The notes below the pieces were generated by a model. That model saw only the letters and a program-made list of their open reading frames with translations, was not told the origin of the DNA and ran no database searches. From NCBI RefSeq assembly GCF_003417465.1, contig NZ_QVMV01000029.1, positions 1 through 50,477 on the forward strand: a stretch of DNA of 50,477 nucleotides. Reading direction: 5' to 3'. This DNA is from Wenzhouxiangella sp. 15190. Its GTDB lineage: Bacteria > Pseudomonadota > Gammaproteobacteria > Xanthomonadales > Wenzhouxiangellaceae. Shown here in pieces: positions 196-35,069 of this stretch; the first letter of the stretch is position 1, and the number at the start of each line of letters is the position of its first letter. The position numbers and the translations under genes are program-made.

Positions 196-218
196 TGCGC
201 ATCGAACTCGCTGGCGCT

Positions 219-297
219 CGGTTCGAACCCTCGATGGAGCTACAAACCCCATACTCCCTTAGCAGGGGAGCGCCTTCAGCCACTCGGCCACCTCTCC
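219..297 (-). tRNA. tRNA-Ser(GCU)-like gene with interrupted 3' end
   Basis: From 297 on the minus strand come an acceptor 5' strand GGAGAGG, a D arm, anticodon stem-loop CTCCC-CTGCTAA-GGGAG (anticodon GCU), a long variable arm (GGGG..CTCC) and the T-arm start GAGGG-TTCGAAC. The T stem should then close with CCCTC and the acceptor with CCTCTCC-G-CCA. Instead the sequence runs C-GAGCGCC into the hairpin array. A possible displaced acceptor strand, CCTCTCG, occurs about 100 bases further on at 118-124. The gene is either a pseudogene broken in the T arm or a tRNA split by an insertion. The 5' half is clear; whether it makes a functional tRNA is doubtful. Confidence 0.6.
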
Positions 298-320
298 GGA
301 AAACTGATTTTCAGGCCCGC

Positions 321-356
321 CCGGCGTGAGCCGGGGAGCAAGGGCGAGCATTGTAC
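321..356 (-). promoter_or_regulatory. possible promoter and leader hairpin of the tRNA-Ser pair
   Basis: On the minus strand TACAAT (351-356) resembles a sigma-70 -10 box about 55 bases upstream of the right tRNA-Ser copy. A perfect hairpin, CCCGGC-GTGA-GCCGGG (321-336), lies between it and the tRNA. I see no convincing -35. The rest of 298-490 holds no gene. Confidence 0.35.
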
Positions 357-490
357 CGCATGCGTTTTGGCGATGCTCGCCGCCCGAGGCGCGAAAGGAT
401 AGCGGCAATTGCTTTTGCGGTAAACCCCGGCGATACCGAAATTTCGCGATAGAATGATTAGCTGATCTGCTGACTATCCAAGGAGCTTTC

Positions 491-1117
491 GTGGAAGGCA
501 ACGGCAAAGCGCCACCCAAGCGCTCGACGCGCAGCATCGATTTCTTTCGGGGCTTCCTGCGCAGCCCCGAGCAGGTGGGATCGATCATTCCGAGTTCTCG
601 CTTTCTGGAACGCCGCATCATCAATACTTCCGGAGTGGCCTCGGCCAGAACCGTGGTCGAACTGGGGCCGGGCACCGGCGGCACCACGCGCGCCATTCTG
701 GCCGCCATGCCGGAGGATGCGCGTCTTTTGACCATCGAGCTCGATCCGCAGTTTTCGTCCATTCTCGAGGCGATCGGCGACCCCCGCCTGATTCCGCACA
801 CCGGCAGCGCGGCTGACCTGGCCGATATCCTGGCCGAGCACGGCCTGGGCGCGCCGGACGTCGTGATTTCGGGTATCCCGTTTTCGACCATGCCGCGCGA
901 GATCGGGTTGGCGATCATCGCCGCCGTCCGCGACAACCTGGCGCCGGGTGGTCGATTCGTCGCCTACCAGTTCCGCGGGGCCGTGGGGCGCATGGGCAAG
1001 GAAGTCATGGGCGAGCCCGAGGTGGAGATGGAGATACTCAATATCCCGCCCATGCGTTTTTATACCTGGCAGGTAGACGGTGCGAGTTCAGAGGCCGAGC
1101 ACCGCACTGGCGATTGA
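491..1117 (+). CDS. class I SAM-dependent methyltransferase, phospholipid N-methyltransferase-like
   Basis: This is a protein of 208 residues. The glycine-rich SAM-binding motif I is seen as VVELGPGTGGTTRAI near residues 55-69, followed by an acidic motif II (LLTIELDPQF) and a later VVISGIPFSTMP segment. The N-terminal segment (RSIDFFRGFLRSPEQVGSIIPSS) resembles the PmtA/rRNA-dimethylase-like methyltransferases that act on phosphatidylethanolamine. That assignment is by family resemblance; the substrate is not shown by the sequence. The start is GTG, chosen because AGGAG lies at 481-485 with a 5-base spacer. The last 30 bases overlap the 3' end of convergent mgtE. Another small-molecule or RNA methyltransferase remains possible. 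Confidence 0.8.
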   Translation: MEGNGKAPPKRSTRSIDFFRGFLRSPEQVGSIIPSSRFLERRIINTSGVASARTVVELGPGTGGTTRAILAAMPEDARLLTIELDPQFSSILEAIGDPRLIPHTGSAADLADILAEHGLGAPDVVISGIPFSTMPREIGLAIIAAVRDNLAPGGRFVAYQFRGAVGRMGKEVMGEPEVEMEILNIPPMRFYTWQVDGASSEAEHRTGD

Positions 1118-2443
1118 GAAGTAGATCAGGATGCCGCCCACGTCGGCCACCGATGTGATCAGCGGTGTGCTTGCGGTGGCGGGGTCCAGTTTGAGGCGCT
1201 GCAGAAGAAACGGCAGCAGCACGCCGATCATGCCGCCCATGACCACCACCGCGAGCATGGCCAGGCCGACGATCAGCGCCAGCTCGAGGCCGATATCCGA
1301 CCCGCCGCGCCAGGCGCCGATACTGGCGACCGCGGCCGCCATGGTCAAACCCAGCATTACGGCAACCGACAGTTCCTTGCCCCACATTTTCAGCCAATCC
1401 GTGGCCGCCACGTCGCCGGTGGCCAGCGCGCGGACCATGAGCGTGGCCGATTGGCTGCCGGCGTTACCGCTGCCGGCGATGATCATGGGCAGGAAAAAGA
1501 CCAGGCCGATGACGGCCTCGATTGACGGCTGGTACAGGGCAATGGCCAGGCCGCTGAACAGGTTGACGACGATCAGGATCATCAGCCACCCGATACGTTT
1601 GCGGTACAGAAAGACCGGGCTGGCCTCACGCATCGACACGTTGAGGCGGCTGCTGCCGCCGAACTTGTGGAAGTCCTCGGTGATTTCGGCCTCGGCCACG
1701 TCCATGATGTCGTCGACCGTGACGATCCCGAGTAGCACGCCGCTTCGGTCGGTCACCGGCAGGGTGCTGATGTCGTAGTGCTGGATGGTCTGAACCGCCT
1801 GTTCGCGGTCGGCGTCCGCCTCGATCCGGATCACGTCTTCGTCCATCAGCGCTTCGACGTGCGCGTCCTGCTTCGTGAGAATGAAATCCTTTAGCCGGAT
1901 GGCATCGAGCAGCTTGCCCCGCTCGTCGGTGACGAACACGAAGTTGACGGTTTCCCCGCGATGGGCTTCGTGGCGGATGTGGTCGAGGGCACGGGTCACG
2001 GTCCACTCGGGTCGCACGGAGACGTACCGTGTCGTCATCAGTCGCCCGACCGATTCTTCCGGATAACCGAGCAACTTCAATGACTGCTTGAGATCCTCCG
2101 GGCCGAGCAGCTTGAGAACGCCTTCGAGCTCCTGCGGTGCCAGGCTTTCCAGGAAGGCGGTACGGTCGTCGGGTACCAGCTCTTGCAGGATGCGGCGGGC
2201 CTGGTCTGGCTCGAGGTCGCTGATGACTTCCTGCTGTAGCCCGTGGCTGAGATAGGAAAAGGCGTCGGCGCGTCGTTCATCGGGCAGGGTATCGAGCACC
2301 TGCAGGCGGCCTTCCCGCCCCATCTGCGACAAGGCCCTGGCGATGTCCTGAACGGCCGTTTCCTCGAGCCGTTGTTCAAGTTCCTCTTTCCGGCCCGAAT
2401 TCTGGAGGATGAGCAGTTCGTCGATGACGCCTTTTTCGGTCAT
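1088..2443 (-). CDS. mgtE: magnesium transporter MgtE
   Basis: This 451-residue protein has the full MgtE layout. An N-terminal cytoplasmic helical-repeat domain spans about residues 1-130. A CBS pair spans about 135-260 ([18 protein letters not shown], then [19 protein letters not shown]). Five membrane helices follow from about residue 285. The conserved pore-region signature [17 protein letters not shown] is visible in the membrane part. MgtE proteins are homodimeric Mg2+ channels gated by Mg2+ binding to the N and CBS domains. Length and domain order are normal. It runs divergently from rpsF and converges on the methyltransferase gene with a 30-base overlap. I saw no Mg-sensing riboswitch in the leader. 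Confidence 0.95.
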
Positions 2444-2519
2444 GCGCAGAGGGCCTCCCGCTGGCTGTGGATTTGGCGGTAGCAGATCGCTCCGTCAAGA
2501 AGGCAGGGCAACGGTGCTA

Positions 2520-2549
2520 TTGCCCGAAGCCCGACCCGCGGTATACAAT
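2520..2549 (+). promoter_or_regulatory. candidate promoter of the rpsF operon
   Basis: TTGCCC (2520-2525), an 18-base spacer and TACAAT (2544-2549) form a reasonable sigma-70 promoter about 120 bases before rpsF. The -35 is the right half of an inverted repeat GGGCAA/TTGCCC (2506-2525), which might be an operator or cruciform. The call rests on pattern only. Confidence 0.5.
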
Positions 2550-2599
2550 ACCCGGCTTGTCCAGAATTGGGCAATCCCTTGCTCCACGGCGGCTGTTTA

Positions 2600-2628
2600 C
2601 CGGCCTGGCCGGGGGCTTTGCAGGCCGG
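2600..2628 (+). promoter_or_regulatory. structured leader hairpin upstream of rpsF
   Basis: A perfect 8-bp stem, CCGGCCTG/CAGGCCGG, encloses 13 bases. It is followed directly by a second hairpin, CCGGGG-CCGGA-CCCCGG, ending just before the ribosome-binding site. S6 operons in many bacteria carry a leader RNA bound by the S6:S18 complex for feedback control, and this leader is a candidate. I cannot match the consensus motif with certainty. Confidence 0.4.
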
Positions 2629-2667
2629 GGCCGGACCCCGGACTTGGAAATCCACGAGGAGTCGACA

Positions 2668-3225
2668 ATGCGACATTATGAAATCGTTCTCCTGGTCCAT
2701 CCGGACCAGAGCGAACAGGTGCCCGGTATGCTCGAACGCTACCGCAGCCTGGTCGAGGAAAAAGGTGGCACTGTCCACCGCAGCGAAGACTGGGGCCGCC
2801 TGCAGTTGGCCTACACCATCGCCAAGCTGCACAAGGCGCACTACCTGATGGTCAACATCGAGTGCGACGGCGAAACCCTGTCCGAGCTCGAAAGCATCTT
2901 CAAGTTCAACGACGCCATCCTGCGTCATCTCATCGTCCGCAAGGACAAGGCCGAGACCGAACCTTCGGTGATGCTCAAGCGCAAGGAAAGCAAGGACGAG
3001 CGCGAAAGCGCCCGTCGCGAGCGCCCGGACGATAGCGACAATCGGGGTGAAGACGAATCCGAAACTGTTTCCGACACGGATTCCGCGGAAGATTCGGGCG
3101 ACGACGCCGCAGAAGATTCGGGTGTTGCCGCGGAGGATTCTCCGAGCGGCGAGTCGGACGATGAACCGGAAACCGAGTCGCCCGATGACGCGGACGACGA
3201 CGACAAGCACAAGGCGGAGGGCTGA
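2668..3225 (+). CDS. rpsF: 30S ribosomal protein S6 with long acidic C-terminal tail
   Basis: This is a protein of 185 residues. Residues 1-100 are a typical S6 fold ([19 protein letters not shown], then [20 protein letters not shown] and [12 protein letters not shown]). From about residue 120 to 180 the chain is almost entirely Asp, Glu, Ser and Ala, ending [13 protein letters not shown]. Usual bacterial S6 is about 95-135 residues, so the tail is unusually long. S6 binds S18 and 16S rRNA in the platform of the small subunit. The start is ATG at 2668, with ACGAGGAG seven bases upstream; the frame is open further upstream but that part is not S6-like. It is first in the rpsF-rpsR-rplI operon. 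No priB lies between rpsF and rpsR. Confidence 0.95.
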
Positions 3226-30314: not shown

Positions 30315-31470
30315 GCGCGTCCGAGAGGTCTTCCCACAGATCGTCAGCCTCTTCCAGGCCGACCGACAGTCTCAGCAGCCCGTCACCGATCCCGCCCGAT
30401 TCGCGCCCGGTTTCGGAAACGACGCGGTGGGTCAGGCCGGCTGGATGCTGGATGAGGGTGTCGACCGAGCCCAGGCTGACGGCCGGCATCATCAGCGATA
30501 CGTTCTGCATCACCGTTGAGGCCGACCGGTAGCCCGCTTCCAGCTCGAAGGCCAGGATGCAGCCGCCGCCGCTCATCTGGCGCTCGAGAAGGTCGCGCTG
30601 CGCTGCGTCGTTCCATCCCGGATAAAAGACCCGGCCGACGGCCGGATGGCCGGACAGCCTTTCGGCCAGGTCCATTGCCGTCTGCTGGGCGCGTTCGACG
30701 CGCAGCTTCAGGGTCGGCAGGCTGCGATGCAGCAGGTAGGCCGCCCAGGGATGCATCAGCGCACCGGTGGCGACACGAACTTGGCGCAGCTTCGCCGCCC
30801 GCGCCTCGCTGCACGCGACGGCGCCGGCGATCACGTCGCCATGGCCGCCGAGAAACTTGGTCGCGCTGTGAAGCACAATCGCAGCGCCCAGTTCGAGCGG
30901 CTGCTGCAGGACCGGTGTGGCGAAGGTCGAATCCACCACTACCGGCACGTCGCCGGCCTGGCGAACCACATCGGCAATATCGACGAGTTCCAGGGTCGGG
31001 TTGGCCGGTGTCTCGATCAGGACGAAAGCCGTCTCGTCGGAGACCGCTTCGGCCACCTGATCGGCGGTGGTCCAGGTCACCCGGTTGCCCAGCAAGCCAC
31101 TGTCGAGCAGGTGGTCGCTGGTCCCGTAAATGGGCCGCACGGCGACGATCTCGCGTCCGGATTCCTGCGTGGCCAGCACGATGGCCGTCAGCGCGGCCAT
31201 GCCGGAGGCGAAGCCCACGGCGGCTTCGGCGCGCTCGAGCCGCGCCAGCGCCTTCTCGAAGCGCGCTACCGTCGGGTTGAGCAGCCGGGCGTAGACGGGA
31301 TTCTCGGCTTCGGCCTGGCCGGCGACCAGGGCATCCAGGCTCGCCGTACCGCTTGCCAGATCCTGTAGCGGATAGGTGGTCGAAAGGTCGACCGGCAGGG
31401 CATGGACGCCCAGCTGGCGCAGGTCCTCGCGACCGGCGTGCACGCCGGTGGTGTGGTCGTAGCTGCTCAT
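30226..31470 (-). CDS. PLP-dependent trans-sulfuration enzyme (cystathionine gamma-synthase/lyase family)
   Basis: This 414-residue fold-type I enzyme carries the PLP Lys in LHSATKFLGGHGDV, a phosphate-binding YARLLNPTVARFE, and the GMAAL stretch. The active-site tyrosine is in RPIYGTSDHLL; the Cys that marks classical methionine gamma-lyase (YGC) is replaced by Thr. The chemistry is gamma-elimination or gamma-replacement on cystathionine, homocysteine derivatives or methionine; which one is not decided. It is divergent from an Lrp-type regulator at 82 bases, an arrangement also seen for Pseudomonas mdeA-mdeR. It converges with, and overlaps by 89 bases, the cNMP-binding gene. Confidence 0.88.
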   Translation of the reverse strand: MSSYDHTTGVHAGREDLRQLGVHALPVDLSTTYPLQDLASGTASLDALVAGQAEAENPVYARLLNPTVARFEKALARLERAEAAVGFASGMAALTAIVLATQESGREIVAVRPIYGTSDHLLDSGLLGNRVTWTTADQVAEAVSDETAFVLIETPANPTLELVDIADVVRQAGDVPVVVDSTFATPVLQQPLELGAAIVLHSATKFLGGHGDVIAGAVACSEARAAKLRQVRVATGALMHPWAAYLLHRSLPTLKLRVERAQQTAMDLAERLSGHPAVGRVFYPGWNDAAQRDLLERQMSGGGCILAFELEAGYRSASTVMQNVSLMMPAVSLGSVDTLIQHPAGLTHRVVSETGRESGGIGDGLLRLSVGLEEADDLWEDLSDALRATRRAPTGPSSCAEPIQGAFPSARKSA

Positions 31471-31535
31471 GTTGCGGCTCCCGGGTTGTCAAACGGGTGC
31501 CATTGTAGGAGCATATTCGGTAATAATGTTCTATC

Positions 31536-31550
31536 CCGAAATAATATCGG
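31536..31550. promoter_or_regulatory. candidate Lrp-type operator between divergent genes
   Basis: CCGAAATAATATCGG is an AT-centred palindrome (CCGA/TCGG arms), ending two bases before the regulator start. A related stretch, TTCGGTAATAATG, lies at 31516-31528. Together they span the 82-base divergent gap. The size and AT-rich core fit Lrp/AsnC boxes. Confidence 0.5.
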
Positions 31551-31552
31551 TT

Positions 31553-32041
31553 ATGAAACCAAATATTGAACTGGATTCGAAAGATGCCCGAATCGTGCAG
31601 CTTCTGCGGAAGAATGCTCGGATGTCCAACAAGGAACTGGCCGCCAAGACGGGTCTGGCACAATCGAGCTGCCTGGAGCGGGTGCGCCGGCTGCGCATGG
31701 CTCGCGTACTGACCGGTTATCACGCCGAAGTGAATCCGGATGCGCTGGGTATCGGCCTGCAGGCGATGGTGGCGGTGCGCCTGTCCCGACATGCGCGCTC
31801 GGACGTCGAGGCCTTCGAACGGCATCTGGATTCGGTGACCGAAGTGATCACAATCTTCCACGTGGCCGGTGCCAACGATTACCTCGTACACGTAGCCGTG
31901 CGCGACTCGGCCCATCTTCGTGAACTCGCCCTGTCGGCCTTTACCGAACGCCCGGAAGTCGACCACATCGAAACCCAGCTCATCTTCGCCCACCGGCGAA
32001 ACCACGAGCTGCCGGTTTACCTGGATCTGGACGAAGCCTGA
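31553..32041 (+). CDS. Lrp/AsnC family transcriptional regulator
   Basis: This 162-residue protein has an N-terminal winged HTH (DSKDARIVQLLRKNARMSNKEL, then GLAQSSCLERVRRLR at about 25-45) and a C-terminal RAM/AsnC effector domain (VRLSRHARSDVEAFE, then VIT-IFHVAGANDYLVHVAV). ATG at 31553 gives the family N-terminus; the frame is open 28 codons upstream, but that reaches into the regulatory gap. It is divergent from the trans-sulfuration enzyme and likely senses an amino acid to control it. A 26-bp-arm hairpin begins 12 bases after the stop. Confidence 0.92.
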   Translation: MKPNIELDSKDARIVQLLRKNARMSNKELAAKTGLAQSSCLERVRRLRMARVLTGYHAEVNPDALGIGLQAMVAVRLSRHARSDVEAFERHLDSVTEVITIFHVAGANDYLVHVAVRDSAHLRELALSAFTERPEVDHIETQLIFAHRRNHELPVYLDLDEA

Positions 32042-32052
32042 GTCTGGGGGGC

Positions 32053-32131
32053 GGCGGGTGCCGGGTTGCATGCCGGGCTCATACGAAATCCGAGATTTCC
32101 AAATCGCCCGGCATGCAACCCGGCACCCGCC
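32053..32131. repeat. large perfect inverted repeat with conserved-loop core, copy 1
   Basis: The left arm 32053-32078 and right arm 32106-32131 are 26-bp perfect reverse complements (GGCGGGTGCCGGG...). The 27-base loop (32079-32105) itself holds GAAATC/GATTTC. The loop matches the loop of copy 2 at 25 of 27 bases on the opposite strand, while the arms are unrelated. Position just after the lrp stop suggests it could also act as a terminator. Confidence 0.95.
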
Positions 32132-32160
32132 TTGAGTGAGCAGAAGGTGCCTGAGCGGAG

Positions 32161-32242
32161 GGTGGGGAGACGGGGCATGGTTCGAGTGATTTGGAAATCT
32201 TCGATTTCGTATGAACTCGAAGCATGCCCCGTCTCCCCAACC
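32161..32242. repeat. large inverted repeat with conserved-loop core, copy 2 (inverted)
   Basis: Left arm 32161-32187 (GGTGGGGAGACGGGGCATGG...) pairs with 32215-32242, with one mismatch and one bulge. The 27-base loop (32188-32214) is the reverse complement of the copy-1 loop except for two bases. The arms share no sequence with copy 1. Twenty-nine bases separate the copies. No gene is present in 32042-32324. Confidence 0.93.
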
Positions 32243-32278
32243 GCAGCGCCCCAAAAGAACCCAACCCACAACAGAAAA

Positions 32279-32297
32279 GGCCCGCCAGTGGCGGGCC
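32279..32297 (-). terminator. intrinsic terminator of acnA
   Basis: An 8-bp perfect stem, GGCCCGCC/GGCGGGCC, has loop AGT. On the minus strand it is followed by TTTTCTGTT. It lies 28 bases past the acnA stop. Confidence 0.8.
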
Positions 32298-32324
32298 CTT
32301 ACTTCAAAGTTGACTTGAAGGGGG

Positions 32325-35069
<2,745 letters not shown>

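Follow-up and report, generated by a model that had tools for sequence, protein, structure and literature searches.

A constant 27-nt tip on variable arms: long hairpins of a probable REP-like extragenic family in Wenzhouxiangella

Two long hairpins stand side by side where the ends of acnA and of an lrp/asnC-type gene converge in the window, that is, in the whole analysed stretch of 50,477 nucleotides of Wenzhouxiangella sp. 15190. Their loops are nearly identical in opposite orientation and their arms are not, and the locus thus raises the question of what is kept in such an element: the loop, the arms or the folded structure, and on which strand. The original prediction took the hairpins for members of a dispersed family in which a constant, recognised loop stands between self-complementary arms that are copied locally, for example by template switching.

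The two hairpins between lrp and acnA

The features of the locus are given below. The F strand, assigned to each hairpin as the putative folded form that is kept, is the complement of the strand as first written: 5'-GATTTSGAAAYC NNN GRTTTCGYATGA-3'.

31469..32041, plus strand: Lrp/AsnC-type regulator gene (PF13404, PF01037); 11 nt from its stop to hairpin 1
32053..32131, F strand minus: hairpin 1, whole; 26 of 26 arm pairs
32053..32078, plus strand: left arm of hairpin 1
32079..32105, plus strand: 27-nt constant tip of hairpin 1, TCATAC GAAATC CGA GATTTC CAAATC read on plus
32106..32131, plus strand: right arm of hairpin 1
32132..32162, no strand: spacer separating hairpins 1 and 2
32163..32239, F strand plus: hairpin 2, whole; 24 of 25 arm pairs
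32163..32187, plus strand: left arm of hairpin 2
32188..32214, minus strand: 27-nt constant tip of hairpin 2, 25/27 identical to tip 1
32215..32239, plus strand: right arm of hairpin 2
32273..32303, minus strand: terminator-like hairpin with a T-run behind acnA; ordinary, separate from the element and lying before it
32325..35069, minus strand: acnA, aconitase gene (PF00330, PF00694); 85 nt between its end and hairpin 2

The coordinates of the Lrp/AsnC-type gene are those of the longest open frame, and its real start possibly lies later. The perfect 26-bp arms predicted for hairpin 1 were recovered in full, the same count of 25 identical positions out of 27 was obtained for the two oppositely oriented loops, and the small GAAATC/GATTTC stem, with a 3-nt end loop, is present in both tips. 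Hairpin 2 is a long hairpin as predicted, but smaller than thought: its arms, put at about 27 bp, comprise 25 positions with 24 paired, and it ends at 32239, not at 32242. The statement that the arm sequences share nothing holds for the left arms of hairpins 1 and 2 in so far as their best ungapped match amounts to 11 positions (a figure without chance estimate); it does not hold for the family, where some arm positions are fixed over 27 copies.

Both hairpins fold far better than shuffled sequence. On the plus strand none of 200 shuffles was as good for either hairpin, and the z-scores are -9.1 (plus strand) and -9.3 (minus strand) for hairpin 1 and -9.5 (plus strand) and -8.9 (minus strand) for hairpin 2. 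Allowing up to 3 mismatches, the tip pattern did not occur in any of 100 shuffles of the window. The window holds one pair only, and the weight of the evidence comes from relatives.

Copies in the genus and paired change of their arms

In the window's own genome (G000) the tip was matched twice at up to 3 mismatches, both matches being the present hairpins, and structure models found only those two places; the predicted loop copies elsewhere in this genome are thus missing and only relatives carry more. Tip matches at up to 3 mismatches were present in 5 of 43 genomes of the family Wenzhouxiangellaceae, and a structure model built from 18 copies matched 9 of these 43. A refined structure model matched 10 of the 30 Wenzhouxiangella genomes, one of them (G021) doubtful at an E-value of 0.4. 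The consensus TCATRCGAAAYCNNNGRTTTCSAAATC was found with at most 1 mismatch in 9 of 398 genomes of the order (a draw from a larger group), all of them Wenzhouxiangella (9 of the 30 of the genus), and in none of the 368 order genomes outside Wenzhouxiangella. An exact scan for the tip in one genome per species for 84,980 species matched three stretches, two in Wenzhouxiangella sediminis XDB06 and one in a gammaproteobacterial MAG. Hits of a shorter pattern, GAAATCNNNGATTTCCAAATC, in viral contigs were rejected: there are 7, of which five share one sequence; in six of the 7 no more than 7 of the 24 flanking positions pair, the seventh lies too near a contig end for scoring, and as far as could be seen no member is among them.

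At least 28 copies were scored in 9 of the 30 genomes of the genus, 27 at E ≤ 1.4e-9 and the copy of G037 at 7.1e-7; the counts are lower bounds, with 103 or 148 candidates scored out of some 200-3200 first-look candidates per genome. A weak copy of G025 (C108, E 0.016) and a copy behind acnA of G035 with N in its tip are left out of the 28. In the latter (L077) a run of 22 N breaks the tip, probably an assembly gap at the hairpin or else a masked stretch, and the gene on the far side of the copy is other than lrp. At the lrp-acnA place of G034 (L003) hairpin 1 is absent and a stretch like the outer part of its right arm (GCACCCGCCT) is left, which suggests either loss of hairpin 1 or an earlier state. 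In the broad sense, as dispersed intergenic palindromes at several places in a genome and in its relatives, these elements are REP-like. The dispersed family with a constant tip between variable self-complementary arms hence exists in the relatives, with the tip as its best-kept part, although the own genome has only two copies.

The elements are about 79-87 nt long, with arms of 23-26 bp and a tip of mostly 27 nt (20 nt in two copies of locus L063). In an alignment of 27 copies, from which the weaker copy of G037 was left out, 92% of the cells are paired compared to 64% in shuffles, and the covariation score amounts to 0.62, compared to 0.14 in shuffles and about 0.10 at most when the partner is slid by 1-3 columns; 22 of 29 pairs have changed on both sides. 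At each of the arm pairs 2, 4, 15, 16 and 23, counted from the tip, at least 23 of the 27 copies agree (all 27 have G-C at pair 15), a weaker constancy is found at pairs 5, 14, 17 and 21, and the spacing between the main clusters of fixed positions would correspond to about one turn of the helix.

Between orthologous copies 12 comparisons were made, drawn from four genomes for acnA, from three for lrp and from two each for ahpC, gltA and DUF502; those within a group share copies and are not independent events. Here the arms are 64% identical and the tips 94.5%, whereas the arms of 339 non-orthologous comparisons show 49% identity. The arm changes of the orthologous copies comprise 82 two-sided and 32 one-sided ones, with 37.6 two-sided changes expected if the sides were independent. 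Since the arms, at 64% identity, change in matched pairs while the tip stays at 94.5%, we conclude that the arms drift in place under a pairing constraint and that the tip is held. The structure is kept more than the arm sequence. Local copying of the arms by template switching, as originally proposed, does not agree with orthologous arms that resemble each other more than arms elsewhere, change in matched pairs and keep their fixed positions.

The 28 copies are located at 16 places (18 gene ends, counted by hand) in the 9 genomes, among them the ends of acnA, lrp, citrate synthase, metK, recX and others. According to counts that rest on a crude frame caller and were read by hand, 20 of the 28 copies lie at most 50 nt from a stop codon, those of acnA at 80-140 nt; 7 of the 16 places have convergent genes on either side, and one (L067) has divergent genes. 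Of the 12 placements that could be scored, 10 have the adjacent gene on the read strand (two-sided p about 0.04, by hand); the figure is 8 of 10 if inverted pairs are counted once (two-sided p about 0.11, by hand), and copy orientation relative to the genes is only suggestive; single copies at the closely convergent ends L072, L070, L036 and L045, as well as L050 (285 nt away) and L067, were left unscored. At the inverted-pair loci (acnA/lrp and gltA/DUF502) the paired F strands point away from each other, and at the recX locus of G035 two copies stand in tandem. A regulon of related genes was rejected as an explanation, the ten neighbour genes scanned (aconitase, Lrp/AsnC, redoxin, citrate synthase, DUF502, S9 peptidase, SAM synthetase, RecX, radical SAM and aldo/keto reductase) having no apparent common theme. 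The gene neighbourhoods of the copies differ between species. No clean empty site with a target-site duplication was definable, as the intergenic regions are too diverged for boundaries, and we therefore can only infer mobility of the element.

A second family of hairpins was first met by chance at the acnA-lrp place in G023 and G037. It has a 27-nt tip, GAAGGCCTCGCCACCGCGTCGAACTGA, of the form GA...TGA, and arms of about 26 bp, also occurs as inverted pairs, and was present in 6 of 11 genomes searched (of the 30 in the genus), with 5 copies in the own genome.

G000:C6:89117 and 89232; C24:75258 and 75383; C26:181498: copies of the second family in the own genome
L095, L082, L170-L204: loci of the second family

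Its arms are variable among G000, G016 and G036 and near-identical in G028. In that genome (L185-L202) the hairpin is central in an element that measures about 185 bp and has terminal inverted repeats close to the consensus CCTGATTAGCGTCGTGTCTCAG; the element is present in many near-identical copies, despite which no Y1 transposase is among the matches listed for G028. In about 450 kb of the own genome (the window plus a sample skipping the places of the second family) no other such hairpin was found besides the two of the window. The six other hairpins listed in this survey have simple-word arms, loops of 6-40 nt, or arms of 19-31 nt that enclose neither of the two tips. Long intergenic hairpins with simple-word arms, e.g. 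AGTGTGAAGTG or GGTTTCAGG, were seen at L209:2765-2853 (behind metK of G000), at L132 and at L066:1433-1517 (G036); L209 and L132, the latter being the G000 counterpart of the L072 place, occupy places where relatives carry the element. In 400 kb sampled from G036 (L231-L245) further palindromes of medium size were observed; their loops measure 35-61 nt, and several of them recur.

The folded strand and possible roles of the element

The mismatches that remain in the arms are unequally distributed. On the read strand 42 A.C and 6 G.T mismatches were counted (37 and 4 after removal of five gapped or variant rows), where a composition null lets a G.T share of 0.40 be expected (p = 4e-5); when each of the 19 loci was represented by a single copy, p was still 0.003 in the least favourable of 200 draws. 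The alignment model was derived from the read strand, so that any bias from it would be expected to favour G.U on that strand. The 42 A.C mismatches of the read strand correspond to 42 wobble pairs on the complementary strand, and it is the F strand that has the more stable fold, in 24 of the 27 copies under RNA energies and in 26 of the 27 under DNA energies. A C-to-T bias of the ordinary transcription-linked kind, acting on the coding strand, would shift the asymmetry in the opposite direction, and we therefore read it as selection for the folded F strand. For the second family all listed copies together show 54 G.T to 11 A.C, mostly contributed by the near-identical copies of G028 (35 to 1); with redundancy removed 22 G.T to 11 A.C are left (p = 0.08, not significant), and for this reason the asymmetry of the second family is not used as evidence.

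On the F strand the tip has GA at both of its ends, i.e. opposed GA dinucleotides, with a pyrimidine before the tip in 25 of 27 copies and a purine after it in all 27. A sheared G.A step prefers a pyrimidine before and a purine after it. Judged from these letters, the opposed GA at the base of the tip together with the flanking bases may form a tandem sheared G.A step. The two short-tip variants of L063 read GGGA and GUAA on the F strand, which we take to be GNRA-type tetraloops.

We consider it fairly probable that both hairpins belong to a low-copy, genus-restricted, REP-like extragenic family of which the complementary strand is kept folded and the tip is probably recognised. The kept form would be the F strand as a folded single strand, the arms of which would tolerate G.U/G.T wobbles and the tip of which would join the arms via the opposed GA dinucleotides, perhaps as tandem sheared G.A, followed by the small inner hairpin. 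A host or element protein would bind this folded strand, contacting the tip and the fixed positions of the arms; such binding would leave the other letters of the arms free to change if they stay paired. Copies would have spread rarely and would then have been kept in place beside gene ends. A protein-bound loop had been among the original proposals, and it is possible on a folded single strand, which would be the strand opposite to the one first considered. No protein candidate for the element was found. A linked transposase, which the original prediction had proposed to look for, was likewise not detected: a Y1 transposase (PF01797) has no match in six of the nine carriers (G016, G034, G035, G025, G026 and G030, of which four are 65-85% and two 97-99% complete), PF01797 matches are present in the carriers G000, G036 and G037, and a RAYT link was rejected as a general explanation on account of the six carriers.

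Alternatively, the F strand could be transcribed as antisense or read-through RNA into the 3' end of the adjacent gene, where hairpin and tip would act as a protein-binding site, in RNase III-type processing or as an antisense guard. Such a function would agree with the tolerance of G.U pairs, the opposed-GA step and the GNRA-type short tips of the F strand, with the proximity of 20 of the 28 copies to a stop codon and with the acnA/lrp and gltA/DUF502 loci, where each F strand enters the 3' end of the nearest gene. We nevertheless regard it as rather unlikely. In five of seven tandem-gene loci (those of the redoxin gene, the S9 peptidase, metK, recX and the radical-SAM gene of L038) the genes on both sides are antisense to the F strand, the loci L071 and L037 are oriented oppositely, and among the 29 Rfam matches listed for positions 31900-32400 none reaches the gathering score; the Rfam leads are sub-threshold and mostly microRNA precursors, which are drawn by any long hairpin. 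Because F strands point both ways in inverted pairs and are antisense to both neighbours in these five of seven tandem settings, we lean slightly toward single-stranded DNA (or a cruciform arm) and away from antisense RNA as the folded strand. An RNA element of the sense strand in the 3'UTR, which the position of most copies behind a stop on the read strand might suggest, was rejected, as the mismatch asymmetry favours the other strand; copies at convergent ends are uninformative on orientation.

The hairpins could also be quasi-palindromes that are kept paired by replication template switching and are recognised by nothing, the tip being conserved only from youth of the copies. Correction of this kind would leave matched-pair changes, and the genus does contain other long hairpins, some with simple-word arms. 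However, the difference between tip (94.5%) and arms (64%) is found in the same orthologous copies and youth therefore cannot explain the tip; neither the A.C/G.T asymmetry nor the fixed arm positions is predicted by template-switching correction, which makes this origin improbable. Ordinary intrinsic or bidirectional terminators of convergent genes, for which the closeness to stop codons and the 7 of 16 places between convergent genes would be expected, are very improbable in view of the scarcity of T-runs (at least 4 within 20 nt past the foot for 3 of the 28 copies along the read direction and for 0 of 28 along the F direction), of the terminator-like hairpin that acnA of the own genome has for itself before the element, and of a kept 27-nt tip, which a terminator does not call for.

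The attC sites of integrons act as a folded single strand, have a variable stem, lie behind stop codons and carry constant boxes at their foot. We give hardly any credence to an attC-like or other recombination site acting here as a folded bottom strand, since the resemblance in variable arms, one-strand preference and place behind a stop codon and an integron integrase above the curated cut-off in 12 of the 30 genus genomes are opposed by constancy at the tip instead of the foot, by RYYYAAC / GTTRRRY box pairs at the feet of 0 of 28 copies, by an integrase that does not track the element closely (5 of the 9 carriers and 7 of the 21 genomes without the element have it above the cut-off) and by copies that stand alone or in pairs at scattered places and form no arrays. 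In G000, two short end fragments at C28:47794-48026 are among the integron integrase matches listed, possibly a remnant.

Going beyond the REP-like family with a recognised tip, the two tip families might represent a class of at least two families in the genus, each with a mostly free arm of about 25 bp and a fixed apical module of 27 nt. They would be kept, and perhaps spread, by a putative factor, neither a Y1/RAYT transposase nor an integron integrase, that recognises the folded strand antisense to the adjacent gene, and a possible role of theirs would be to mark the 3' ends of genes against antisense transcription coming in. We offer this as speculation that, taken as a whole, is unlikely.

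Comparison with known systems

REP elements of the GTAG and CGTC super-families have stems of 5-13 bp and loops of 2-20 nt in Table 1 of the published account, with loops up to 27 nt in some Bradyrhizobium (PMC3733652). The Wenzhouxiangella elements share with them the nature of extragenic palindromes, the frequent inverted dimers, the restriction of many of them to a species or genus and complementary changes in the stem. They differ by arms of 23-26 bp with a 27-nt tip, by a constancy that resides in the tip and not in stem or foot, and by the lack of a conserved GTAG or CGTC foot: among the 28 copies CGTC occurs near the feet in 5, GTAG in 4, GACG in 4 and CTAC in 3, counts that are roughly at chance level as estimated by hand.

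In REPINs the outer ends are constant and the inner spacer varies with compensatory changes (PMC3116915; recognition by TnpAREP, PMC8266576). REPINs and the present elements alike are long hairpins in which part of the stem shows compensatory changes; in the present family, however, the tip is conserved and not the ends, each unit forms a hairpin of its own instead of two inverted units forming one larger hairpin, and, unlike in the REPIN/RAYT system, six of nine carriers are without a Y1 transposase match.

The LIMP and HyLIMP elements of the Lobosphaera mitochondrial genome have a constant loop, self-complementary arms, both orientations and intergenic positions in common with our hairpins, and HyLIMP stems show complementary mutations (PMC4524435). 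The arms of LIMP are repeats of one pentanucleotide around a 7-nt loop, and both are organellar, in contrast to a bacterial element with a 27-nt tip. A kept loop motif on a variable stem is also found in the hairpins of the rhizobial sRNA EcpR1/SmelC291, where the motif is short, UCCUCG, and belongs to one trans-acting sRNA gene (PMC4414408, PMC3927594); the copies of the present family are dispersed and not part of a single sRNA gene.

In the literature searches made no matching element was found, which is no proof of its being unpublished. A constant 27-nt tip on variable arms of 25 bp is matched by none of REP, REPIN and LIMP. The extragenic palindromes considered here keep stem, foot or ends constant, and the Wenzhouxiangella family does the reverse. 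The paired drift of its arms amounts to a natural compensatory-mutation experiment that suggests which strand is kept, and the 27-nt tip of the F strand is a clear target for finding the maintaining factor, a gap for repeats without a known transposase.
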